Origin: Syntrophomonas sp.
GTDB lineage: Bacteria > Bacillota > Syntrophomonadia > Syntrophomonadales > Syntrophomonadaceae
NCBI GenBank assembly: GCA_016841245.1
Contig: JAENZN010000001.1
Span: 186,001 to 250,000, forward strand
Reading direction: 5' to 3'
DNA length: 64,000 nucleotides
The position numbers and the translations under genes are program-made. Position 1 is the first letter of the stretch. Each line of letters begins with the position of its first letter. The notes beneath the pieces are model-generated. The model was given only the letters and a program-made list of their open reading frames with translations. It was not told the origin of the DNA and did not search any database. Shown here one piece after another: positions 21,008-53,832 of the stretch.

Positions 21008-21036
21008 ATTATATTAATATTGATTATCATTATCAA
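21008..21036 (-). promoter_or_regulatory. Promoter with overlapping Fur box for the ABC exporter operon
   Basis: Reading leftward, TTGATA (21036-21031) and a perfect TATAAT (21013-21008) are separated by 17 bases. The -35 and spacer are covered by TGATTATCATTATCA (21021-21035), which matches the 7-1-7 Fur core at 13 of 14 symmetric positions. Iron-loaded Fur would block this promoter directly. Confidence 0.7.
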
Positions 21037-21459: not shown

Positions 21460-22518
21460 TCATGAATTATCGGCACAAACGCAGGTAGCTCTCATAATAC
21501 TAAAACTAACCTCTTGACCAGGTTCATAACAACTATCGGCCATAGCCTGAACTTTTAATATATAATCGTTAATTTTTATTTTGTAGTTTATTACACTACC
21601 ATTAAAATTCTTAGTAATAATTTGACCTGTTAGATGTCCAGAACCTTCGCTAAGTTTAATATCTTCACTGCGGACTACCAATATCTGTTCGGATTCAAAT
21701 TCCCTTGCTTTTCCGTTAATCAGGTTCTGCCCAGCCATTTTCCACAGCTTCATTTCCGCCGGATTGTCCTGTTTCGGGCAAATTAAATTGGAGTCGCCCA
21801 TAAAACGGGCAACAAACTCCGTTCGGGGAAAACGATAAACTTCTTCAATCGTTCCGACCTGCACAAGTTCCCCCTGATTCATTATTGCAATACGATCAGC
21901 AATAGACATAGCCTCTTGCTGATCATGAGTAACATGAATTACTGTCAATAATAAGTCTCTTTGAATTCGTTTGATCTCTTCCTGCATCTCCTTTTTCAAA
22001 TTAGCATCAAGATTAGAAAGTGATTCATCCAGAAGTAAAATCATTGGCTTTAAAGCCAAAGCCCGAGCCAGAGCTACTCGTTGTTGTTCTCCTCCACTCA
22101 ATTCATGCGGATAACGGCGCTCCATACCCTGGAGCCGAACTAATTCCAGCAGCTCTCCTACTACTTGTTTTTGTTTGGAATGACTATATTTCTTAATTTT
22201 CAAGGGATAAGCGATATTGCCGAACACATTATAATGAGGCCACAGGGCATAATCTTGAAAGACCATAGCAATACTGCGTTTTTCCGGATTAATGTAAATA
22301 TTTTCATCAACCGAGGACATTAACTTTCCGGCTAAGGTGAAGCTGCCGGCATCAGCCTTAACTAGACCGGCGATAATTTGCAGTAAGGTAGTTTTTCCAC
22401 AACCGCTAGGTCCTACAATAGCAAATATCTCCCCTTGATAAATATTCAGGCTCAAATCATTTACAACCTTGACCTGTTGGTACTCTTTACTTATATTACT
22501 CAGTTGAGCATAAGCCAT
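21460..22518 (-). CDS. fbpC: Iron(III)-type ABC transporter ATPase
   Basis: A 352-residue ATPase of the FbpC/PotA/CysA class with a C-terminal TOBE-like regulatory domain. Walker A GPSGCGKTT, Q-loop AMVFQDYALWPHYNV, signature LSGGEQQRVALARAL, Walker B ILLLDESLSNLD and switch His in IHVTHDQQE are clear. Note DESLSN in place of the usual DEPLSN. The ATG at 22518 shares its A with the permease stop (TGATG) and follows GGAGGGG by five bases. Last gene of the fbpABC-type operon. Iron is inferred from the operon type and the upstream Fur-like box. Confidence 0.83.
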   Translation of the reverse strand: MAYAQLSNISKEYQQVKVVNDLSLNIYQGEIFAIVGPSGCGKTTLLQIIAGLVKADAGSFTLAGKLMSSVDENIYINPEKRSIAMVFQDYALWPHYNVFGNIAYPLKIKKYSHSKQKQVVGELLELVRLQGMERRYPHELSGGEQQRVALARALALKPMILLLDESLSNLDANLKKEMQEEIKRIQRDLLLTVIHVTHDQQEAMSIADRIAIMNQGELVQVGTIEEVYRFPRTEFVARFMGDSNLICPKQDNPAEMKLWKMAGQNLINGKAREFESEQILVVRSEDIKLSEGSGHLTGQIITKNFNGSVINYKIKINDYILKVQAMADSCYEPGQEVSFSIMRATCVCADNS

Positions 22519-24212
22519 CACGACCCCTCCATCCTGGATTTTCCAAATTTTTCTATTAATACATTTCCTATTACAGTCAGCAAAATGACTAAAACCGCTA
22601 AAGCAGAAATTGTTTCTAAACCTCCGCTATCTGAACGCATATTAAACATAAGTACTCCTATAGTTTCACTTCCCACTGAGTAGAGCATTATGGATATGGG
22701 TATCTCCCGCAAAGCCATTAGAAATGACATAATCCACCCGGTCCTGATTCCGGGCATGATTACAGGCAGGGTAATGTCCTGGTAGGACTGAAACCTAGAG
22801 GCCCCCGATATCCGGGCTGCGTTCTCCAATACCGGGTCCATTTCCTGCATGAGACCGTTTACGTTTCTCACGGCAAAGGGCAGACAGGCCGCAACATAGG
22901 TAATTATTATTATCCAGGGAGTAGCATATAACTTAAATGGCGGATTGATCCACGCCAGGGTAGCAGCGACTGCCATAACCGTTCCCGGTACTGCCAGAGG
23001 CCAGGTTGCTGCAAATTCTATTGCCTTTCTGCTTTTCAGCCGGGTCTTATTGGAAATAAAGACCACCGTTGCTCCCAGCACAGCAGCAATTGAAGCTGCT
23101 CCTGCTCCAAAGCATATACTATTTCTTATTGCCCTTACTGCTGTGGCCTGCTCCATAAATATTGCCCGGTAATTAATCAGAGTAAAGTTTTCCAGGCTCA
23201 GTTCCATCCCCCATTTCTTCAGAAAAGAAGAAAATATCAACGTACCCAGTGGTATTAAGGTAGTTAAAGTTAAAATGCCTGCAACTCCAGAAACCACCGG
23301 TATTTTCCATCTGCCTAGAGGAATCAGTTCCGGCGTTTGACTGCGAGAGTTGACATGGATGTAACGTTTTTTGCGCAAACTGATATTATGCAGAATGAAT
23401 ACCAACCCGGAACAAAGCAGTAGTATTCCTGAAGAAGCTGTAGCCATAGGCAGATCCAGGCCGTTAAGAGCACTGTAAATTCTGGTGGTTAAAATATATT
23501 TTCCCGACGGTAATCCGATAACAGCGGCCACTCCAAAACAGGCCATAGTCTGCTGAAATACCAGGAGGCCTATCGATAGTATACTGGGCATTATCAGCGG
23601 AACCGTGATACTTAACAAAGTTCTTAGACGTCCAGCTCCGGCCAAGCGAGATGCCTTTTCCAAGCTAATATCGCTCATCTTCAGTGCGCTGGAAAGTGAC
23701 ATGAATACCAGCGGGAAAAGATGAATGGCCATGATGATGATAATCCCTTCCAGGGAATATATGTTTATGGGCTCATCTATAAAGTGCCATTCCTTCATTA
23801 TACGGTTAAAAAAACCATTTCGTCCAAATAACTCTATCCAGGCAACCGCCAGTATATACGACGGGATAACAAAAGCAAGAAATATTAACACCCGGAAAAT
23901 CCTTTTCCCTGGCAGGTCAGTCCTGCTAATCAACCAGGCCAGCCCCCCGCCCAGGAGACCGGCCATTAATGTTACTCCAGTCGCTATATATAAAGTATTT
24001 TTTATTGAGATTATTGTTTTAATATCGCTGAATGCATCCCAATATTTAACCAGGCTAAAATCGAATGAGTGTACACTTACACCCAGGCTGTACAGTAAAA
24101 GAACGGCCAGAGGATATAAGACTACCAGGATTAATATCAGAGCAACCAAACCACCCATAAGCAGTTGCCAGGAGTTAAATTTGCATTCCTTTGTTTTTAT
24201 TAGATCCAGCAT
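22518..24212 (-). CDS. fbpB: Iron(III)-type ABC transporter permease (two fused domains)
   Basis: A 564-residue membrane protein made of two homologous permease domains of about six helices each, the layout of FbpB/SfuB. Each half carries an EAA-type coupling loop: EKASRLAGAGRLRTLLSITVPL in the first and ENAARISGASRFQSYQDITLPV in the second. It overlaps the ATPase gene by one base and starts six bases after the binding-protein stop, so the three form a tight operon. The same family includes 2-aminoethylphosphonate and thiamine transporters; iron is favoured by context. Confidence 0.84.
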   Translation of the reverse strand: MLDLIKTKECKFNSWQLLMGGLVALILILVVLYPLAVLLLYSLGVSVHSFDFSLVKYWDAFSDIKTIISIKNTLYIATGVTLMAGLLGGGLAWLISRTDLPGKRIFRVLIFLAFVIPSYILAVAWIELFGRNGFFNRIMKEWHFIDEPINIYSLEGIIIIMAIHLFPLVFMSLSSALKMSDISLEKASRLAGAGRLRTLLSITVPLIMPSILSIGLLVFQQTMACFGVAAVIGLPSGKYILTTRIYSALNGLDLPMATASSGILLLCSGLVFILHNISLRKKRYIHVNSRSQTPELIPLGRWKIPVVSGVAGILTLTTLIPLGTLIFSSFLKKWGMELSLENFTLINYRAIFMEQATAVRAIRNSICFGAGAASIAAVLGATVVFISNKTRLKSRKAIEFAATWPLAVPGTVMAVAATLAWINPPFKLYATPWIIIITYVAACLPFAVRNVNGLMQEMDPVLENAARISGASRFQSYQDITLPVIMPGIRTGWIMSFLMALREIPISIMLYSVGSETIGVLMFNMRSDSGGLETISALAVLVILLTVIGNVLIEKFGKSRMEGS

Positions 24213-24218
24213 CTTTTA

Positions 24219-25307
24219 TCAGAGTTCGGTCATTATTTTTTCAAAATTTTCCCGTATTTCATCATCATTGGCGCTGGCATTTTCCCAGTCCAGGGTAATT
24301 GCCTGAACTTTATTCGGTACCCCGGCCGGGAGTTCTTGATCATTTCTTACAGATACAAAACCATATTTTGCCGCTATCTGCTGCCCGGATGGCGCAAGCA
24401 CAAAATTGATAAATTCTTGACATAATTCGTTGTTGGCATCTGGACGTGCCTCATTGGCAATTATAGCTATCGGCCTCTGTACACTAATAGCACCTTCTTC
24501 AGGCCACGCTATAGCCAGCGAACTATCTATACCTTTTTTCTTATCACTTTTAATAGCCCTCAATACCCCATCATGGGGAACGATAGCTGCATCGGCCTCG
24601 CCGGTAGATACCATTTCCACCGCCTGATTATTCTGTTTGGTAAGGATGACCCGGTTATCTTTAAGCGATTGTAAATATTCCCAGCTGCCATCGTTGATCT
24701 GCAGCAGCCCTGCTGTAAGAGCCAGAGCCATAGCAGACTGTCCGGCGTCAGCTATAGCTACCCGGCCTTTCCAGTTAGATTTGGTTAAATCTGCCCAGAA
24801 TGAAGGTATCTCCTCGGCAGCGACTTTTTCCCGGTTATAAACAATGACTCCATAACGGGCGTTGCATAGAGTATAGTAGTTATCTCCCATCTTATACTCT
24901 GGTTTTATTGCTTCTGCTTCCGGAGAAGTATACTGCTGCAAAAGCCCCTTTTCTCTAAGATTCATATACAACAGAGGTTCTGCTCCCCATATTACATCAG
25001 CCTGAATGCCACCTGCTTCTGCTTCGGTACATACTTTTTGCGCCAGTGGGCCACATCCCATAGGCAGTATGTTTAATACATCACCACGTTCCTGTTCAAA
25101 GGCATTTTCCAAATCTGCCAGCATCTGTTCCGGTCCTGAAAGATAAATAGTAATTCGTCCTTCTTCTCCACTGTAAACCTGAGTTACCGCCTGATTTTCT
25201 GATGCTTTGTTTTCATTATCACTCGCAGCCTGCTGACCGGCACAGCCACTGAATAACAGTGCCAGGGCCAGAATTAAACTCCAAAAGACTCCTGTACTTT
25301 TCCTCAT
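24219..25307 (-). CDS. fbpA: Iron(III)-type ABC transporter binding lipoprotein
   Basis: A 362-residue extracellular solute-binding protein with a lipoprotein signal ending FSGCAG. The mature N terminus is Ser/Ala/Asn-rich, then the family-typical ITIYLSGPEQMLADLENAFEQE begins the first lobe. QADVIWGAEPLLYMN and ARYGVIVYNREKV are typical of the Fbp/AfuA class. FbpA proteins bind ferric iron through tyrosines; several are present (YYTLCNARYGVIVY), but I cannot align ligands reliably. A Fur-like box about 140 bases upstream supports iron. Confidence 0.82.
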   Translation of the reverse strand: MRKSTGVFWSLILALALLFSGCAGQQAASDNENKASENQAVTQVYSGEEGRITIYLSGPEQMLADLENAFEQERGDVLNILPMGCGPLAQKVCTEAEAGGIQADVIWGAEPLLYMNLREKGLLQQYTSPEAEAIKPEYKMGDNYYTLCNARYGVIVYNREKVAAEEIPSFWADLTKSNWKGRVAIADAGQSAMALALTAGLLQINDGSWEYLQSLKDNRVILTKQNNQAVEMVSTGEADAAIVPHDGVLRAIKSDKKKGIDSSLAIAWPEEGAISVQRPIAIIANEARPDANNELCQEFINFVLAPSGQQIAAKYGFVSVRNDQELPAGVPNKVQAITLDWENASANDDEIRENFEKIMTEL

Positions 25308-25443
25308 AATTCTCCACTTCCTTTTTGAAAACTTGATCTTATTTTACTGCTTAGGCGATTCATATTTAGTAGACATAATAATCAAAATTACCAAGACAAT
25401 ATGATCCTAATCTTAAGCATTGAAAATAATAAGATTACAATAA

Positions 25444-25458
25444 CGGTAATCATTATCA
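25444..25458 (-). promoter_or_regulatory. Fur-like box upstream of fbpA
   Basis: CGGTAATCATTATCA matches the TGATAAT-N-ATTATCA core in 12 of 14 positions, with the right half perfect. It lies about 140 bases before the binding-protein gene and just beyond the stop of the siderophore-type ATPase gene. No clear -10/-35 pair was identified around it. Confidence 0.5.
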
Positions 25459-25476
25459 CTATAACGACAAGAAATA

Positions 25477-26262
25477 TTACCCTGACAGAGCAACTACAGT
25501 CTTCATTGGAATTCCTCTGTTTTCAAACGGTATTATCCGTACGTCTACGTCAAAAAATTTCCTTAAATTATCTTCAGTAATTACTTCTTCTGTTCTGCCA
25601 AAAATATGTTTTTTGTTTTTCCCAAGAATAAGCGTTTTATCAGATATTCGCAGAGCATGTTCGGGATAATGGGTATTAATGATACAGCTTATCTCCTGGT
25701 CCCTGGCTATTTTTTTTAGCAAATCCAGAATCAACAGCTGGTTTTTAAAATCCAGATGAGATTCAGGTTCATCCAGTATGAGTATCTCCGGTTCAGAAGT
25801 CAGTGCTCTGGCTATCAAGACCAGCTGCATTTCTCCGCCGCTTATCTCTGAACACGATTTATCTCCTAAGTGTTCTATCCCCACTATAGCGAGCGACTTT
25901 TCAGCTATTACCCTATCCTTTTCAGCTGGAACAGAAAATATTCCCAGATAGGGCGCCCTTCCCATAAGTACCATATCCATAACGCTATAAGAAAACACGA
26001 CTCCGTTACTCTGAGGTACATAGCCTATATTCTTCCATACCTGTACAGCTTGCATATCATGCAGTGGTTTTCCATCCAGGTAAGTACTGCCTTGTTTCCA
26101 CTGATATATATTGGTAATGCATTTTAACAGAGTTGTTTTACCAACCCCATTAGGGCCCAGAATTGTTAGCGTTTCCCCAGCTTCAACTGAAAACGATAGA
26201 TTCTTATAGAGTGTTCGTCCCATTCCGTATTTAAACTCGCCGTTTTTCACTTCCAGCTTCAT
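25477..26262 (-). CDS. Iron-complex ABC transporter ATPase (FepC-like)
   Basis: A 261-residue ATPase of the FecE/FepC/BtuD class. It has Walker A GPNGVGKTT, YVPQSNG Q-loop, signature EISGGEMQLVLIARAL, Walker B ILILDEPESHLD and switch His in INTHYPEHA. The DEPESHLD sequence replaces the usual DEPTSHLD. The ATG at 26262 shares its A with the permease stop (TAATG) and follows AGGAGG. It is the last gene of the operon that begins with the NifH-like gene at 33022, so it probably powers uptake of the compound that the nitrogenase-like proteins act on. Confidence 0.85.
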   Translation of the reverse strand: MKLEVKNGEFKYGMGRTLYKNLSFSVEAGETLTILGPNGVGKTTLLKCITNIYQWKQGSTYLDGKPLHDMQAVQVWKNIGYVPQSNGVVFSYSVMDMVLMGRAPYLGIFSVPAEKDRVIAEKSLAIVGIEHLGDKSCSEISGGEMQLVLIARALTSEPEILILDEPESHLDFKNQLLILDLLKKIARDQEISCIINTHYPEHALRISDKTLILGKNKKHIFGRTEEVITEDNLRKFFDVDVRIIPFENRGIPMKTVVALSG

Positions 26263-27296
26263 TACCATTTCCCTCCTGTCTTTCTTAATAAGTAGGCAAA
26301 GAACGGTGCCCCTATTATCGCCGTGAGAATAGACAGTGGGATTTCTGCTGCAGTAGCTGTCCTGGCAATATCGTCAATAATCAGAAGATAAAACGATCCG
26401 ATAGAAACGCAGGCCGGCAACAGCCTTTTATGATCGGGACCAACTATCATCCTGGCTATATGAGGTATCACTAGACCAACCCACCCTACTATTCCACATA
26501 AACAGACTGATGCTGCAGTAATAACCGTGGAAGCTGCAATAACTACCCATCTAGTCTGCTGGATATTTATACCCAGCGAGCGTGCTTCTTCTTCTTCCAA
26601 TGACAGAATATTTATCCTCCAGCGCAGCAGTATCAGAACCACAATCCCGCCAATGATCAAAGGAGCTCCTATCAGCAGATCATCATAGGAAGCACCGGAC
26701 ATACTCCCCATCAGCCAGTACACAATAGCTGGCAGTTTATCCTCCGGATCGGCTATATACTTTATCAAAGAAATCAAAGCTTGAAAAAACGCTCCTACAA
26801 TTACTCCGGAAAGAACCAGCATAAATATCGGGGTTCCACTTTTCAACCTGCTTATCGTCCAGGTAGCGATAACTGCTATAATTCCAAAAAACAGGGCCAG
26901 GGCCTGCACCGTCCCTACCTGCCCGGATAGAAGTATCCCCAGTGCAGCTCCGAAACCCGCTCCCGCCGAGACGCCCAGTATATGTGGACTGACCAGCGGA
27001 TTAGCAAATAAGCCCTGGAATCCCGCGCCGGATATCGCCAGTCCCGCCCCTACCAGCATAGCCAGCATAAGCCGCGGCAGCCTTATGTTTATTACTACCG
27101 ATTGTTCTACTTCAGTCCAATCAGGTGTCATCGGCATCAAATAGGAAGATAATATGTTCAGCACCGTTCCGGGAGATACCCAATATCTTCCCATACAAAG
27201 TGAAATGAAAAAAACTATTACCGGCAGCAGTACCAAGCTGATTATCAATAATCTATTCTGTTTATTAGTGTGTTCTCGTGCCAGTACATCCTGCAT
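26262..27296 (-). CDS. FecCD-family iron-complex ABC permease
   Basis: A 344-residue permease of the BtuC/FecCD/FepD class with about ten membrane segments. Diagnostic stretches are RLPRLMLAMLVGAGLAISGAGFQGLFANPLVSPHILGVSAGAGFG and, late in the chain, GWVGLVIPHIARMIVGPDHK. These transporters import siderophores, heme, cobalamin or other metal complexes. It is translationally coupled to the ATPase downstream and follows two binding-protein genes. Preceded by GGAGG at seven bases. Confidence 0.88.
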   Translation of the reverse strand: MQDVLAREHTNKQNRLLIISLVLLPVIVFFISLCMGRYWVSPGTVLNILSSYLMPMTPDWTEVEQSVVINIRLPRLMLAMLVGAGLAISGAGFQGLFANPLVSPHILGVSAGAGFGAALGILLSGQVGTVQALALFFGIIAVIATWTISRLKSGTPIFMLVLSGVIVGAFFQALISLIKYIADPEDKLPAIVYWLMGSMSGASYDDLLIGAPLIIGGIVVLILLRWRINILSLEEEEARSLGINIQQTRWVVIAASTVITAASVCLCGIVGWVGLVIPHIARMIVGPDHKRLLPACVSIGSFYLLIIDDIARTATAAEIPLSILTAIIGAPFFAYLLRKTGGKW

Positions 27297-27402
27297 TAAA
27301 TATCCTCCTAGACTATCACATCGTTCTGCTATAATTAGAAGTTATTAAGTGACGGGATCATATCAGCTATTCCCCCCCATTAATAGCTCCTTGATTTTAA
27401 TT

Positions 27403-28548
27403 TTATTTATATCCTTCGGCTGCAGCACGTACTGGATTAAGAATCATTTCGGTTTGTTCATCGGAAAGGTTATATTCATAAAACCTGGAATAAAAGCTTT
27501 TAATTTCATCTTTTATGTCATAATCAGGAAAAACATCCGGATGATTTTTTTGAGCCAGCCATTTTAGCATCAATGGTGCATCTCCGCTGGGGGGAAACCA
27601 GCGGTAAATTCCCAGCGGGATCTTATACACCCGGCCTTCCTGTACCGCTTTTACTCGACTCCAGTCCTGGCCCTTAATAGTATTGTTTATAAGATCTTCC
27701 GGCTGGGTTTCTGTAAAGTTGGTTATATAGATGATATCTGGATTCCATTTGTATATCTGTTCCATATTGACTATTGATTTGATATTTATTTCCTCGGCTA
27801 CATCTCTTGCACCCGTAGATACTAACCAATGGTGACCAAAGAATCCTGAACCCGATACCTCTATCTCGTTATCAGAATGGCGGAAGATCATTAAACCCCG
27901 TGGTTTTTCTTCTTCCGCAATGTTTTCAAGTCGACTATCGATCATTTTCTGGGTTTCACGCCCGTAATTGATTATTTCCTCTGCTCTTTGGTTTTTACCT
28001 GTAATTTGCCCTAACAGTTCTAACCAGGAATTCAGGGTTTCCACTGAATCGCCATCATACAAAGACGAGGTTTTTATCCCTATGGTAGGTATACCCGTAT
28101 CAGCTACCTTTTCCAGGTTACCACCCATTCCGGTCTCGCCTAATACAAAAACCAAATCCGGATTCAGTTTCAGCAGTTCTTCAACATTAAGTTCTTCCCC
28201 CTTTACAAATCCGGTTTGCGCATTTAGTATTTCCGGAGCCAGTACTTTTAGCATAGAATTTTCAGCCGCACTTTTAGATGCAGGATGAATACCTGCCACT
28301 TCTTCGCATGACCCGGTAGCCAGATAATATGCTGCTGGAAAAGGCAGTATCCGGCCCATTACCACCTTATTTATTTCTGCCGGAATTTCCACAGTTCTTC
28401 CATTTTGATCAGTTACCGTCTTTTCTATCACAGCTGCTTCCCCGCTTGCATCTGATCCGGTATCCGACTCAGCGCTACAACCTGTCAGCAACACCAGACC
28501 CATAATTAGAATCAGCAATAGCACCATCGTTTTTTTACTTTTCATCAT
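27403..28548 (-). CDS. Iron-complex ABC binding lipoprotein, paralog 2
   Basis: A 381-residue class III periplasmic-binding-fold lipoprotein (lipobox LLTGC) of the FecB/BtuF type. It contains VTDQNGRTVEIPAEINKVV at the start of lobe one, LNVEELLKLNPDLVFVLGE, and the C-terminal IYRWFPPSGDAPLMLKWLAQ. It is clearly paralogous to the protein encoded just upstream (28595), sharing the GFVKGEELN-type and GRVYKIPLG-type blocks, so the pair arose by tandem duplication. Two binding proteins for one permease would widen the ligand range. The ligand cannot be named from sequence. Confidence 0.84.
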   Translation of the reverse strand: MMKSKKTMVLLLILIMGLVLLTGCSAESDTGSDASGEAAVIEKTVTDQNGRTVEIPAEINKVVMGRILPFPAAYYLATGSCEEVAGIHPASKSAAENSMLKVLAPEILNAQTGFVKGEELNVEELLKLNPDLVFVLGETGMGGNLEKVADTGIPTIGIKTSSLYDGDSVETLNSWLELLGQITGKNQRAEEIINYGRETQKMIDSRLENIAEEEKPRGLMIFRHSDNEIEVSGSGFFGHHWLVSTGARDVAEEINIKSIVNMEQIYKWNPDIIYITNFTETQPEDLINNTIKGQDWSRVKAVQEGRVYKIPLGIYRWFPPSGDAPLMLKWLAQKNHPDVFPDYDIKDEIKSFYSRFYEYNLSDEQTEMILNPVRAAAEGYK

Positions 28549-28594
28549 AATCCTCCACTCAACTTGGCTATTTTGTATATTTCCACTCAGACTG

Positions 28595-29692
28595 CTACCA
28601 GTTTCCTGTAGGTTTCGGGTTTAAAATCATTTTTATCTGCTCGTCATTGATTTCATACTCAAAAATACTGCTATAGAACTCCTTTATTTCTTCTTCCATA
28701 TCGTAGTCATCAAATACATCCGGGTAGTTTTTCTGAGCACACCACTTAAACATCAAGGACCATTCGGCACAAGGCGGATCCCACCTGTATTCACCCAGCG
28801 GCACCTTATAAACTCGGCCTTTCTTTACTGCTTCTACCGAACTCCAATCCTGTCCTTTCACTTTGTTTTGCAAGATATCTTCCGGGTAATCGTCACAGAA
28901 ATTGCCTATGTAAATCACATCCGGGTTCCATTCATATATCTGTTCCATATCTACACTTTGTCCCCATTCGCAGCCTTCCACCAGGTTTTTGGCACCGGCT
29001 ACATCTACCCAGCAGTAATCTGCAACCTGCAGATCCTCCACGTTGGTCAGTGTAATCGCTTTAACCCTTTTATCTTCCGGTATACTTTCTATCCTGTTAC
29101 TAATGTTTTCCAGAGCTCTGCGGTGATACTCGATGAGCTTGTCAGCCCGTTCCTCTTTTTCCATTACTTCGCCGATTATTCGGAACCAGGATTCAATACT
29201 GTGTTCATCACCCACATTAGCCTCCATTCCAGCTACAGTCAGGCCTGCCCTTTCCAGTTTGCTCATCTCTTTTTCATATCCCGACCACTGAAAAACGATA
29301 TCTGGATTTAATTTCAGCAATTCCTCGGTATTTACTTCTGAACCTTTAACAAAACCGGTAGATGCATTTTTTATTTCCGGCGCCATAATCGATAGCATAG
29401 AAGCATCAGCCGCCGTCATCGCCAGCGGGTGTATCCCCACAGCTTTTTCCATGGAACCTACCACTGCATAATATGCCGCGGCAAAAGGAACACTTACCAG
29501 AACTACCCGATTTATTTCTCCAGGCAGTTCCACCTCTCTGCCAATCTGGTCTGTCACGACCCTGACGGTGGAACCTGCATTCTCATCAACAGGAGCTGAT
29601 TGTTCATCAGAAGCTCCATTGCACCCTGCTAAACTGCCAAAAGCAAGCATAAATATCACAAATATCGCAGCCAAATTCCTATGTTTGCCCAT
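28595..29692 (-). CDS. Iron-complex ABC binding lipoprotein, paralog 1
   Basis: A 365-residue binding lipoprotein (lipobox SLAGC) of the FecB/BtuF fold. Lobe one starts VTDQIGREVELPGEINRVV; TGFVKGSEVNTEELLKLNPD and GRVYKVPLGEYRWDPPCAEW follow. Compared with its downstream paralog it carries extra cysteines around the C-terminal ligand-facing segment (DPPCAEWSLMFKWCAQ). A strong GGGAGGAGATG precedes the ATG. It lies 58 bases after the NifK-like gene on the same strand, which ties the nitrogenase-like proteins to the transporter. Confidence 0.84.
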   Translation of the reverse strand: MGKHRNLAAIFVIFMLAFGSLAGCNGASDEQSAPVDENAGSTVRVVTDQIGREVELPGEINRVVLVSVPFAAAYYAVVGSMEKAVGIHPLAMTAADASMLSIMAPEIKNASTGFVKGSEVNTEELLKLNPDIVFQWSGYEKEMSKLERAGLTVAGMEANVGDEHSIESWFRIIGEVMEKEERADKLIEYHRRALENISNRIESIPEDKRVKAITLTNVEDLQVADYCWVDVAGAKNLVEGCEWGQSVDMEQIYEWNPDVIYIGNFCDDYPEDILQNKVKGQDWSSVEAVKKGRVYKVPLGEYRWDPPCAEWSLMFKWCAQKNYPDVFDDYDMEEEIKEFYSSIFEYEINDEQIKMILNPKPTGNW

Positions 29693-29750
29693 TATTTACA
29701 TCTCCTCCCGTTTTGTTCTTACCATTCCCATCTTTCCAAATACTCTAAAA

Positions 29751-30947
29751 TCAACAGTTCATTCCATGTTGTCCTGCCTGACAGTAGTTATATAAGAGCT
29801 TATATCCCGCTTCACCTACGAAATTTATGGGTCTATCCCAATAAAGACGGCTTGATAAGGCAATATGGGGAAAATCGACATATCGGCTCCCTTTCTTCAT
29901 ATTCAATAAATTACGGTATAAGGGGTCCCCTACGACCAGGTCATAGTTGCCTTCTTTACTCAGGACAAGCAGGTCTGCTTCCTGTTCCAGCTGCACATCG
30001 CCTTTTTCCCTTATCCCGGAATTCAGCTTAAAAAACGAGGCCACATCAACTCTTTCTACCCCCATATCCATACGCAGGCACTCGCGGATCGAGTTGCTCA
30101 TTACCTGTTCTCCAATCACAAGAACACTGCCTGCATCACAGGTTTTCTTCACGAATATATCATTTTCTGCTACCTTCTTTTTCCCAAGCACAGCGGCAGC
30201 ACTACGAATAAATTCTGCAGCGGGCGCACTTCCGATGGGTATCCCGACCAGATAAGGAATTCCATATTCACTCTCCATAAAACGAGCTGCCGCCAGACCG
30301 GAATATGCTGCCACCACATTAAGAACTGCCCGGGCTGATCCTGCAATCTCTTCCATTCCCGCATCCATTCCCCAGCATAAAACTCTCTCAAAACCGGCCC
30401 GTTTCAACAAAGATGACATTTTTCTTACATTACCGCCCTGCCCCAGGTCCAGTACTGTAGCACCGATAATATTAACCAGAGGTTCCGTGGTTCCCCAGGT
30501 AGGTTTAACAAAACGCCGGGCTATCTCCAAGAAAGCCATCGAGGCTCCGCTATCGTAGTAATTGATCCCATTGGTATCGAAAGCCATAACCGGTAAGCCA
30601 GTTCTTTTTTCCAACAGGCAAGCCAGTGCCTGGTAATCTTCTCCTATTACCATTGGCGCAGGGCTGCCCAGCAGCGCTATAAAACCACGTTGCAGCACGT
30701 TGGCCGCATCTTCAATCTTCTTGATCATTTTATCGTCATCACCCAGTACTGCGTCTATCTCCCGCAGTTCTGAACTGAAAATCGCAGAATCATTACCATA
30801 CCAACGCGGTTCATCATAACCGGTAATATTACCTGTACAGCCACCAGCGTCATGTACGACCACCATTCCTCCCAGATTATACAAAACTGAGCAAACCCCG
30901 GAATAATCAGGCGCAAAAGGCGGCAGCACTTTAAACAAGCCTTTCAT
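29751..30947 (-). CDS. Nitrogenase component 1-like protein (NifK-like position)
   Basis: A 398-residue member of the nitrogenase component 1 superfamily (NifD/K/E/N, BchN/B, CfbD, MarD/K). Two N-terminal cysteines, Cys19 and Cys37 (HDAGGCTGN), occupy the metal-cluster region. The third ligand position, normally Cys before GDD, reads LLGSPAPMVIGED and has no cysteine. Later blocks NIIGATVLDLGQGGN and YGIPYLVGIPIGSAP fit the Rossmann-like subdomains. The ATG at 30947 was chosen from GGAGGA nine bases upstream. It is shorter than true NifK (about 520 residues), as expected for a reductase-like relative. Substrate unknown. Confidence 0.82.
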   Translation of the reverse strand: MKGLFKVLPPFAPDYSGVCSVLYNLGGMVVVHDAGGCTGNITGYDEPRWYGNDSAIFSSELREIDAVLGDDDKMIKKIEDAANVLQRGFIALLGSPAPMVIGEDYQALACLLEKRTGLPVMAFDTNGINYYDSGASMAFLEIARRFVKPTWGTTEPLVNIIGATVLDLGQGGNVRKMSSLLKRAGFERVLCWGMDAGMEEIAGSARAVLNVVAAYSGLAAARFMESEYGIPYLVGIPIGSAPAAEFIRSAAAVLGKKKVAENDIFVKKTCDAGSVLVIGEQVMSNSIRECLRMDMGVERVDVASFFKLNSGIREKGDVQLEQEADLLVLSKEGNYDLVVGDPLYRNLLNMKKGSRYVDFPHIALSSRLYWDRPINFVGEAGYKLLYNYCQAGQHGMNC

Positions 30948-30962
30948 TTCAATCACTCCTCC

Positions 30963-32264
30963 TTATATCACCATTCCAGAAGCATACATTTGTTCCCTAT
31001 GACCGTGAGGGCTCTGCAGCGCCTGCAGCATTTGACGAAGCAACGATACAACACCCTGATAACCATAAGGCTGTCGGTCAACACTCAAGGGAGCGGTTTT
31101 AGCTCCCGAGCAGAAGTATCCGGCATCAAAGCCAATTGCCAAATCAACCGTCAGTTTTTGCTTGAGAAATTCCACCATAGTAGGATGAACATTAGTAAAC
31201 ACTTTGATATCTGGTTTATTTTGGGCAAGCCAGTTAATATGTTCCTGATCGAAATCAAGTACCTGATCTGCAAAAATATAAGGAACATCAAATCCATATA
31301 CACTCAAAGCCCTGGCCAGTTCAAAAGGGCTAGCATTTGCTGTTTCCCCAATAGCAACGGAAATATTTCCCAGCATATTCCGGTATAGCCTAACTGCATT
31401 CTCGGCCTCTTCACGAAAACAATCAGCTTCAATGTCAGTATCCAGAAATACCTCCAATCGCTGATAAGTATTGTTAATTGACTCTATTCCATATTCAACC
31501 GGCGCATAACAGTAAGGAATCCCAAGTTTATCATGCATAGATTTCACCGCAAGTCTTCCTCCGGGTTTAACCAGGATATTATGGGATGATTTTCCCATAA
31601 GGTATAGTTCTTCGAGATTCGAACAAGCAGCGATATGACGCACAAGAGATCTTCTCGCCCTTAGAATAACCTGGTAAAATTCACTGTCAATATCCAGCGG
31701 AGCAAAGCTACCAATAATATTTACTCCCCCATCTTTCTCGGCTGCCGCAGGAACGAAATCATAAATCGCCTGCTGCACAGTCAGATTCGGCGGAGTACTC
31801 CCATCCATAGCAATAGGATTCATATGGCAGGAACGCACGGGAATCCCATGTTCTATTTCCAGGTCCCGTGCTATCTGCTCATAATCAGATGCCAGCAGGT
31901 CATCAATACAGGTGGCACAAATAAGCATAGCTTTCGGTTTAATAGTTCGAAATATTTCAGCTGATGCCTGGTATACTTTTTCCAGGTGCTGACCGGTTAC
32001 CAGATCAACTTCATTAATATGCAAAAAAAACAAACGTCTTTTAAAGCCTAACTGAAGTCCAGCTATAGCACCGTGTCTGCCACAGCCAGCTGGCGATACG
32101 AAGAGCATTACCGATTCGGGTACCAGCAGGCCAACGCGTATTATGCCCCATCCGCCTGCGCTGGGAGGACAGTAATGAAGGTTGCATGAAGGCATCACCC
32201 TTTTTCTCTCTAAATCACTAACCCCGCTTAGGTCACCTATAGACAAGCAAAATGCTTCACCCAT
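30963..32264 (-). CDS. Nitrogenase component 1-like protein (NifD/NifE-like position)
   Basis: A 433-residue component 1 superfamily protein. Cysteines at about 27 and 32 (SCNLHYCPPSAGG), 61 (SPAGCGRHG) and 116/119 (LICATCIDDLLASD) match the spacing of the three cluster ligands of NifD-type subunits. The segment NILVKPGGRLAVKSMHDKLG aligns with the NifD region holding the FeMo-cofactor cysteine, but no cysteine is present there. The start codon is fused to the NifH-like stop (TAATG). It presumably forms a heterotetramer with the next protein and receives electrons from the NifH-like ATPase. Confidence 0.84.
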   Translation of the reverse strand: MGEAFCLSIGDLSGVSDLERKRVMPSCNLHYCPPSAGGWGIIRVGLLVPESVMLFVSPAGCGRHGAIAGLQLGFKRRLFFLHINEVDLVTGQHLEKVYQASAEIFRTIKPKAMLICATCIDDLLASDYEQIARDLEIEHGIPVRSCHMNPIAMDGSTPPNLTVQQAIYDFVPAAAEKDGGVNIIGSFAPLDIDSEFYQVILRARRSLVRHIAACSNLEELYLMGKSSHNILVKPGGRLAVKSMHDKLGIPYCYAPVEYGIESINNTYQRLEVFLDTDIEADCFREEAENAVRLYRNMLGNISVAIGETANASPFELARALSVYGFDVPYIFADQVLDFDQEHINWLAQNKPDIKVFTNVHPTMVEFLKQKLTVDLAIGFDAGYFCSGAKTAPLSVDRQPYGYQGVVSLLRQMLQALQSPHGHREQMYASGMVI

Positions 32265-33022
32265 TAAGCCACCTCCAGATCTTGGACCAAACTCCGCGCT
32301 ATAGAAATAATAGTCCGAGATATTTCTAGATCAGGGTTTCCCTGTATTACAGTCTGTTTTTTTTGTTCATAATACTGCACATTATTATCTCGTGGTATAT
32401 CCCCGATTATTTCTATACCGTTCTTCAGCGCAAAGCTTTTTACTATTTCACTTTCATTCTCAACGTTGCGGCGGTTTAAAATCATTCCCCGAAGTTTGGC
32501 ATAATTGCGTTCAGCAAAATTGTCTATTGCCGTTTTGATATTTTGAGCTGCAAAAAGAGACATATTTTCCCCTGAAGTAACGATAATTACTTCATCGGCA
32601 TATCCCTCTCTTATCGGCATAGCAAAACCACCGCACACCACATCCCCCAACACATCGTAAAACACAAAATCCGGCCGATAAATCTCAAAGGCGTTTAGCT
32701 CTTCCAAGATATTGAAAGCAGATATAATTCCTCTGCCCGCACATCCTAATCCTGGAGTGGGTCCTCCAGCCTCAACGCATACTATCCCATTAAACCCTAC
32801 AACTGCAATATCATGCAGCGAATTACATTTACCTTTTTCTTTGAGATAATTCATTACCGGAGTAACTGGCCTGCCGTTGGTAAGATTAATAGTTGAATCA
32901 GACTTGGGATCACAGCCAATCTGCATAACCTTGAATCCCAGACTGGAAATGGCAGCCGACAAAGCACTAGTAGTTGTAGATTTCCCAATACCACCTTTTC
33001 CATAAATTGCGATCTTCTTCAT
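32264..33022 (-). CDS. NifH-like iron protein (nitrogenase/BchL superfamily ATPase)
   Basis: A 252-residue homodimeric [4Fe-4S] ATPase-reductase. The deviant Walker [11 protein letters not shown] (8-17), switch I DPKSDST (38-44), cluster ligands Cys94 in GLGCAGRG and Cys130 in GDVVCGGF are all intact, so it should be a functional ATP-driven electron donor. It is a little shorter than nitrogenase NifH (about 275-297 residues). The gene leads a seven-gene operon: H-like, D-like, K-like, two binding proteins, permease, ATPase. The upstream region has a sigma-A promoter, a Fur box and a TTAGG palindrome, so expression should follow iron starvation. Confidence 0.9.
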
Positions 33023-33309: not shown

Positions 33310-33333
33310 AAGTGTTAGGCTTACCTAACACTT
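33310..33333. promoter_or_regulatory. DtxR/IdeR-like palindrome in the nitrogenase-like operon leader
   Basis: Ten-base perfect arms (AAGTGTTAGG and CCTAACACTT) flank CTTA, giving the core TTAGGCTTACCTAA. It lies 54-77 bases downstream of the predicted transcription start and about 290 bases before the NifH-like gene. The core is the same type as at 20941. Confidence 0.6.
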
Positions 33334-33363: not shown

Positions 33364-33420
33364 TGATATTGATTATCATTATTATAAATAATAATATACC
33401 TACCCCTCTGCTTTTGTCAA
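33364..33420 (-). promoter_or_regulatory. Sigma-A promoter and Fur box of the nitrogenase-like operon
   Basis: Reading leftward, a perfect TTGACA (33420-33415) is followed after 16 bases by TATATT (33398-33393), with TATTAT two bases further as an alternative. Just downstream, TGATATTGATTATCA (33364-33378) fits the 7-1-7 Fur core at 13 of 14 positions and overlaps the start region. No gene was identified in 33023-33587; the interval is a long regulated leader and promoter. Confidence 0.65.
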
Positions 33421-34475: not shown

Positions 34476-34594
34476 TCAAATGGGCCATCCACTTATGTCG
34501 CGCATAAGCGTACAAATTCATTTTCATCGGCATTTTCCCAGCCCTGATTGGGCAGACTATCAACATCCCAAGTCTTTTTTTCAATATGTGATAT

Positions 34595-53731: not shown

Positions 53732-53832
53732 TTATCGTATCTCCTTTCCTTTTAGGCTATCTCAACTTTTTGGTTAACAACGTCAGCTTGCACTAAACTG
53801 CAATCATTCTATGCTTCAATAATCGTTGATAT

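Follow-up and report, generated by a model that had tools for sequence, protein, structure and literature searches.

A nitrogenase-like H-D-K enzyme encoded with a FecCD-type importer in Syntrophomonas: a candidate reductase of imported iron complexes, with hyp-linked relatives in genomes without HydG

Nitrogenase-like enzymes catalyse some of biology's most difficult reductions, and the assignment of each new member has started a field of its own (chlorophyll, F430, methionine and sulfonate metabolism). Nitrogenase-like proteins encoded beside ATP-binding cassette (ABC) transporters were described in 2012, with no function assigned (PMC3464626). The examples were Methanocorpusculum labreanum, Desulfitobacterium hafniense, Clostridium cellulovorans and C. 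botulinum, and a cysteine pattern was given for the first two. Here we analysed such a locus in a 64,000-nucleotide (nt) stretch of DNA from Syntrophomonas sp. (contig JAENZN010000001.1; hereafter the window), where three nitrogenase-like genes, H, D and K, stand in one block with the genes of an importer. A literature search, with most subscription journals and bioRxiv outside its scope, revealed no paper assigning a function to the transporter-linked enzyme. An earlier reading of the window, made from the sequence only, had said that no function is established for this arrangement; our search agreed, although the arrangement itself has been in print since 2012 (PMC3464626). New in this study are the conservation of the bare module over three phyla, its regulatory sites, the pattern of cluster ligands over 101 D/K pairs, and the complementarity between HydG and a group of H-D-K relatives encoded beside hyp genes.

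The block occupies positions 25477-33022 on the minus strand and comprises seven genes:

32264..33022, minus strand: H, NifH-like ATPase/reductase with the P-loop and both cluster cysteines (Fer4_NifH, E=4e-86)
30963..32264, minus strand: D, component-1-like subunit (Oxidored_nitro, E=2e-30)
29751..30956, minus strand: K, component-1-like subunit (Oxidored_nitro, E=2e-30)
28595..29692, minus strand: SBP1, substrate-binding lipoprotein 1 (Peripla_BP_2)
27403..28548, minus strand: SBP2, substrate-binding lipoprotein 2 (Peripla_BP_2)
26262..27296, minus strand: FecCD/BtuC-type permease (FecCD, E=5e-91)
25477..26268, minus strand: ABC ATPase belonging to the FecCD importer (ABC_tran, E=4e-32)

The sequence-only reading had described seven genes on one strand, three of them joined by stop-start overlaps or short gaps, a NifH-like ATPase with intact cluster cysteines, and an H-D-K trio combined with FecB-type binders, a FecCD permease and an ATPase. 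The open reading frames and the profile families bore out each of these points. The stop codon of H and the start codon of D share one base (TAATG at 32264), and the permease and ATPase genes overlap by 7 nt; the other spacings are 6 nt (D-K), 58 nt (K-SBP1), 46 nt (SBP1-SBP2) and 106 nt (SBP2-permease). Because the profile E-values are strong, this gene content is not a chance result. With Peripla_BP_2 proteins, a FecCD permease and an ABC ATPase all present, the transporter is an ABC importer of the FecCD type. H scored under every equivalog cut-off, and the matches of the importer ATPase to HmuV-like and corrinoid-type models were also under cut-off.

We then surveyed related loci by scanning named genomes with a K profile, keeping the best 80 of 505 confirmed matches, chosen by similarity to the window's K. 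The loci were typed by whether a FecCD permease, HypF, HypD or HypE was encoded in the same direction no more than 6 kb away, and the split into importer-type and hyp-type is a statement on these 80 loci. H-D-K and a permease were found on one strand at 39 of the 80 loci; a binding protein was also present at 38 of these and an ATPase at 37. Hyp genes occurred at 32 loci (54 D genes), and eight D genes had neither, several of them at contig ends. The sequence-only reading had named a lack of transporter linkage in close relatives as evidence against itself; the linkage is conserved there. The importer-type loci came from Clostridia, Tissierella, Christensenella, Treponema, other spirochaetes and Synergistota, i.e. 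from three phyla (Bacillota, Spirochaetota and Synergistota). A plasmid of Treponema saccharophilum also carries the module. As Spirochaetota and Synergistota share the gene order, an explanation by close kinship only was rejected. The usual importer-type block is a bare H-D-K-SBP-permease-ATPase series with nothing else conserved, and no NifB-like gene is among the conserved parts of the module. Two importer-type loci encode, between the binding protein and H, two similar proteins of about 280 residues each (L068:4904-6680 and L070:6080-7857); one of the two is SIR2-like, with a match to Avs5 of 76 bits, far under the cut-off.

Upstream of H, we found three predicted control features:

33365..33383, minus strand: Fur box AATAATGATAATCAATATC, 17/19 bases matched, overlapping the expected transcription start
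33391..33420, minus strand: sigma-70 promoter match TTGACA-18-TATTAT (promoter scan)
33310..33333, strand undefined: perfect palindrome AAGTGTTAGGTAAGCCTAACACTT, a DtxR/IdeR-like box

Thus, the Fur-boxed promoter of the sequence-only reading was recovered, and the predicted box would place the block in a Fur regulon. The Fur box precedes the start codon of H by about 340-360 nt. The promoter is one of the two top sigma-70 matches across the 8.4 kb scanned, where the number of matches was not above that in shuffles. A genome-wide scan by pattern matching only, using a pattern derived from the Fur box, gave two exact matches in the 3.9 Mb genome, at the box of the block and on contig 34. Of the eight best-matching places (0-2 mismatches), four fell inside the window. 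With three mismatches there were 51 matches, compared with 39 for the control, so this class is mostly background. Other Fur-like sites in the window lie at 21016, 25439, 34590, 53828 and 58558, those at 34590 and 53828 having three mismatches. The site at 53828 is just upstream of an open reading frame (53731-53507) that is followed by a gene for a GTP-binding protein (53505-51454); judged by sequence and no profile search, the two look like FeoA and FeoB. Among related loci, a DtxR-like box (P ≤ 0.05 against shuffles) was found in 11/36 importer-linked and 0/43 hyp-linked upstream regions. Riboswitch control was rejected, since no Rfam family was found in the window and seven related loci yielded only two tRNAs.

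Since the module has no parts besides an importer and an ATP-driven reductase, and carries control sites of the iron type, "import, then reduce" is its best reading. A role in iron metabolism is likely for the module, with the identity of the substrate a candidate only. We give about even chances to the proposal that H-D-K reduces an imported iron complex, driven by ATP, under iron starvation. The two binding lipoproteins, the permease and the ATPase would import a metal complex, most likely one of iron. H would spend ATP to push single low-potential electrons through its own [4Fe-4S] cluster to the cluster of D/K, which no fewer than three conserved cysteines would anchor between the subunits. 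The D/K cavity would take up the imported complex where nitrogenase has FeMoco and DPOR has protochlorophyllide, and reduction would loosen or destroy the complex in the cytoplasm and so release the iron. The recurrence of the module at 39 loci supports this reading, as does an importer partnership of the same kind in a second nitrogenase-like clade (below). We infer that H-D-K acts on the imported solute, that iron is part of this solute and that its reduction sets the iron free; the iron complex is suggested by the regulatory sites and the hyp-linked relatives described below. There is a genetic precedent for a nitrogenase-like enzyme acting on an imported substrate, IsrBHDK with SsuCAB (PMC11423573).

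Several points weigh against this proposal. A Fur box was found at only 2 of 36 importer-linked loci; thus the Fur box of the window is a local feature, and a family-wide Fur box was rejected, the DtxR-like box being commoner. Even the latter is present in only about a third of the importer-linked loci. Most ferric complexes can be reduced without ATP, and only a complex of very low potential would account for the expense. Nor does the sequence point to a particular transport substrate. Furthermore, among solved structures the molybdate-type binder MolA ranks second in similarity to both binding proteins, and one importer-type subclade (L071, L075, L182 and L183) adds MoeA-like and DUF364/DUF4213 genes.

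The last two points would suit an importer for molybdate, tungstate or another metallophore complex, which H-D-K would then reduce. SBP1 matched 4ovk best in the PDB (2e-68), followed by MolA HI_1472 (2e-23), and SBP2 also matched 4ovk best (3e-63). The MolA match is thus far weaker than that to 4ovk, an entry with no ligand named in the search output, and sequence relatives of SBP1 and SBP2 include iron, nickel and molybdate-type binders. Considering also the Fur and DtxR-like sites, and that most modules are without MoeA-like genes, we regard this reading as very unlikely. Locus L075 of this subclade also has an HmdB-like radical SAM gene (149 bits, under cut-off). HmdB is part of another organometallic iron cofactor pathway.

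D and K do not belong to the named families that we compared them with. Their best score against NifD, NifK and NifE models was 58 bits (cut-offs at least 427), and they reached 32 and 57 bits against the Bch models (cut-offs 420 and 490). Against a cut-off of 268, the CfbD model gave K 24 bits and D no match. A superfamily tree was built with NifDK(EN) of three genomes, the Sulfitobacter pair BchN/BchB and further component-1 pairs; it had no CfbD, Mar or Isr sequences, and the single Bch pair gave long branches. In this tree D and K each formed one fully supported clade (100) with a long stem, separate from NifDKEN and BchNB. Assignment to Nif, DPOR or Cfb was rejected, because D and K lack the defining features of these families that we examined. 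The sequence-only reading had named a position inside the Nif or Cfb clades as evidence against itself, and this was not what we found: the clade is separate from Nif, and the CfbD scores are far under the cut-off. AlphaFold2 models of D and K, with predicted local distance difference test scores of 82 and 80, had the component-1 fold and matched solely component-1 proteins among the matches listed, a likeness at the superfamily level only.

The cluster ligands were compared over 101 D/K pairs. Gaps aside, D-C61, D-C119 and K-C40 were conserved in every row with a residue there. In the alignment they take the positions of NifD C88, NifD C154 and NifK C95, and K-C40 aligns with the ligand Asp36 of BchB. 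Residues D17, D36, D48, E49 and R51 of K are invariant across the family, with one exception at D36. The FeMoco ligands are absent: among 23 D-family rows, the C275 column is a gap and the H442 column has no conserved histidine. The ligand set of DPOR (three cysteines of N and Asp36 of B) is not reproduced either, as two of the three N cysteines are conserved and K has a cysteine at Asp36. Two further cysteines close to the N-terminus of the window's D (PSCNLHYC) could provide a fourth cluster ligand, although the family conserves K-D17 and not that position. On this pattern, D/K is predicted to have a DPOR-like architecture, in which a single iron-sulfur relay cluster sits between the two subunits and a cavity is left open for a substrate.

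Such an architecture, with one iron-sulfur site and no FeMoco ligands, is what would be expected if H-D-K reduced the ring of an imported tetrapyrrole (heme, a corrinoid or another), like DPOR or CfbCD, with metal release secondary or absent. The K model was closest to a DPOR chain among the matches listed (template modelling score 0.77-0.78), and the top model matches of the permease were BtuC models. In addition, a FecCD-type importer is also encoded with a second, uncharacterised nitrogenase-like clade (L177-L181), the neighbour of the K clade in the tree. The gene order there is H-SBP-permease-ATPase-D-K, and the binding proteins include one similar to the heme binder IsdE (190 bits, under cut-off). 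However, SBP1 and SBP2 matched the IsdE model at 26-38 bits only, and K-C40 stands in place of the Asp ligand of BchB. Moreover, hyp-linked members of the same clade lie in H-cluster maturation loci, where no tetrapyrrole gene was seen. We consider a tetrapyrrole ring as the target unlikely. The sequence-only reading had proposed that the enzyme frees iron from an imported siderophore, heme or tetrapyrrole. Its general part, an enzyme that frees imported iron, fits the iron-type regulatory sites, the conserved importer linkage, the separate clade and the lack of FeMoco ligands. No result singles out heme, a siderophore or a tetrapyrrole as the substrate, and the hyp-linked sister group argues against tetrapyrrole-specific chemistry. 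The proposal is thus supported in part.

A sulfur-compound reductase of the Mar or Isr kind might also adjoin an importer by circumstance, and IsrBHDK shows that a nitrogenase-like enzyme can use an imported substrate (PMC11423573). We found no B-type radical SAM gene in the operon of the window or among the core genes of importer-linked modules. Together with the unconserved C275, an importer of the FecCD rather than the Ssu/Tau type, and the iron-type regulatory sites, this makes a sulfur substrate most improbable.

The second arrangement of the family usually has two H-D-K copies flanking hypF, hypC, hypD and hypE, and at the Megasphaera locus HydF and an aspartase-like gene come next. We examined 17 genomes of this type. 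Eight were typed from the neighbours seen (L090, L098, L101, L102, L105, L110, L112 and L123; genomes G439-G446), and HypD was searched for only in these. The other nine (G412, G332, G114, G353, G263, G186, G371, G350 and G097) were typed from the D sequence and from paired or fused copies. In three of the latter (G353, G263 and G186; loci L029, L030 and L032), D and K are fused in one open reading frame of about 790-870 residues. All 17 genomes have [FeFe]-hydrogenase maturation or enzyme genes, HydE was over its cut-off in 17/17, and none has HydG. In the eight genomes with neighbours seen, [FeFe]-hydrogenase genes, HypD and HydE were present, the hydrogenases keep the three H-cluster motifs, and HydG matches reached only 184-206 bits (cut-off 312). 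A [NiFe]-hydrogenase large subunit had no match in 12 of the 17 genomes, a fragment in two and a full-length match in three. Thus, the Hyp proteins are without a [NiFe] client in most of these genomes.

The nine genomes typed from the D sequence belong to an unbiased draw of 398 genomes of the phylum. In this draw, HydF was found in 226 genomes, HydG in 213, and HydF without HydG in 16, among which were all nine of these hyp-type genomes. HydG was present in 0/9 genomes with hyp-type H-D-K, compared with 210/217 of the others with HydF (Fisher test, P = 3e-12, uncorrected for relatedness). Seven genomes (G125, G148, G163, G195, G233, G303 and G327) have HydF and neither HydG nor a close match to the H-D-K family; some are incomplete assemblies and others may use another route. 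Clostridium aminophilum (G437; L145 and L088) has an [FeFe]-hydrogenase with intact H-cluster motifs, no HypD, and no match to the HydG model at E ≤ 0.001. A 2022 survey reported clostridial acetogens with HypCDEF, no HypAB and no recognisable HydG, and left this unexplained (PMC9431212). The literature search described above revealed no paper linking H-D-K with the absence of HydG.

In a concatenated D/K tree, the first hyp-linked clade (gut Firmicutes) is sister to the group of the window, and the second is sister to importer-type rows including Christensenella. As both hyp-linked clades are sisters of importer-type groups, importer linkage looks ancestral, and by this topology recruitment beside hyp genes probably happened twice. 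In the superfamily tree with D alone, the first hyp-linked clade was not placed inside. The hyp-linked members probably replace HydG in H-cluster synthesis. Because these relatives occur where an iron-CO/CN complex is made without HydG, the chemistry of the family is suggested to act on iron complexes and not specifically on tetrapyrrole rings. We tentatively propose, as a possibility that we hold with some doubt, that the clade is a general ATP-driven reductase of iron complexes. It would originally have stripped imported ones, and would later have been recruited, possibly twice, beside hypFCDE in gut Firmicutes. There, two H-D-K enzymes with HypFCDE, HydE and HydF might build the H-cluster without HydG, their part being, for example, the supply of CO or the reduction of an Fe(CN)2CO unit.

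The adjoining metallocofactor biosynthesis genes of the hyp-linked relatives would also suit a scaffold or maturase that builds a metallocofactor from imported metal, as was proposed in 2012 for such clusters (PMC3464626), and NifEN is among the best structural matches. On the other hand, no client enzyme gene is conserved with the importer-linked modules, the organisms carrying them differ widely, and the modules have iron-type regulatory sites instead of linkage to an apoenzyme. A scaffold function is unlikely on this balance.

Hydrogenase maturation was rejected as the role of the window's own H-D-K, its genome having HydG, HydE, HydF and HypD. Such a link is also countered by transporter-type members in genomes without HydF or HydG (G380, and G418 with a broken copy). 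True nifDKEN is present in the same genome on another contig. Downstream of the block, 169 nt beyond the importer ATPase, follows an FbpABC/PhnSTU-type importer, which is a neighbour and not part of the core:

25439-25457: Fur-like site ahead of this importer
24219..25307, minus strand: SBP_bac_6 binding protein, FbpA/PhnS type (profile)
22518..24212, minus strand: double-domain permease (profile)
21460..22521, minus strand: ATPase (translation of the open reading frame)

If true, a conserved enzyme and importer module controlled by iron would give anaerobes a new route to this metal. The hyp-linked relatives make [FeFe]-hydrogenase maturation testable in gut bacteria without HydG, such as Blautia, Coprococcus and Megasphaera, and possibly bear on the source of the CO ligand of hydrogenases without oxygen.

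Among known systems, the nearest is the clade described in 2012, to which the window's D and K appear to belong, judging by cysteine pattern and neighbours and not by that paper's tree. Both have two cysteines in D (alpha-88 and alpha-154) and one in K (beta-95), an adjoining importer, and anaerobic hosts. The main text of that paper is without binding-protein, regulation or phylum-wide data, and proposes metal supply to cofactor assembly (PMC3464626). DPOR (BchL-BchN-BchB) shares the H-D-K division of labour and the lack of FeMoco ligands, and its BchN C54, BchN C115 and BchB D36 (Sulfitobacter numbering) align with D-C61, D-C119 and K-C40. However, the window's D/K forms a separate long-stem clade, the position of the third BchN cysteine is not conserved, and no pigment genes are present. 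The isethionate reductase IsrBHDK and the methylthio-alkane reductase MarBHDK are also nitrogenase-like H-D-K enzymes, and Isr needs an ABC importer of its substrate, but both have a B-type radical SAM protein and importers that are not of the FecCD type. CfbCD of coenzyme F430 synthesis is likewise a nitrogenase-like reductase without FeMoco, although CfbD is a homodimer of one gene product whereas D and K of the window are separate genes. Finally, with respect to the HypCDEF and HydG routes to Fe-CN/CO ligands, the window's locus is not of the hyp type and its genome has HydG, whereas all 17 tested genomes with hyp-linked relatives of its H-D-K mature or carry [FeFe]-hydrogenase without HydG.

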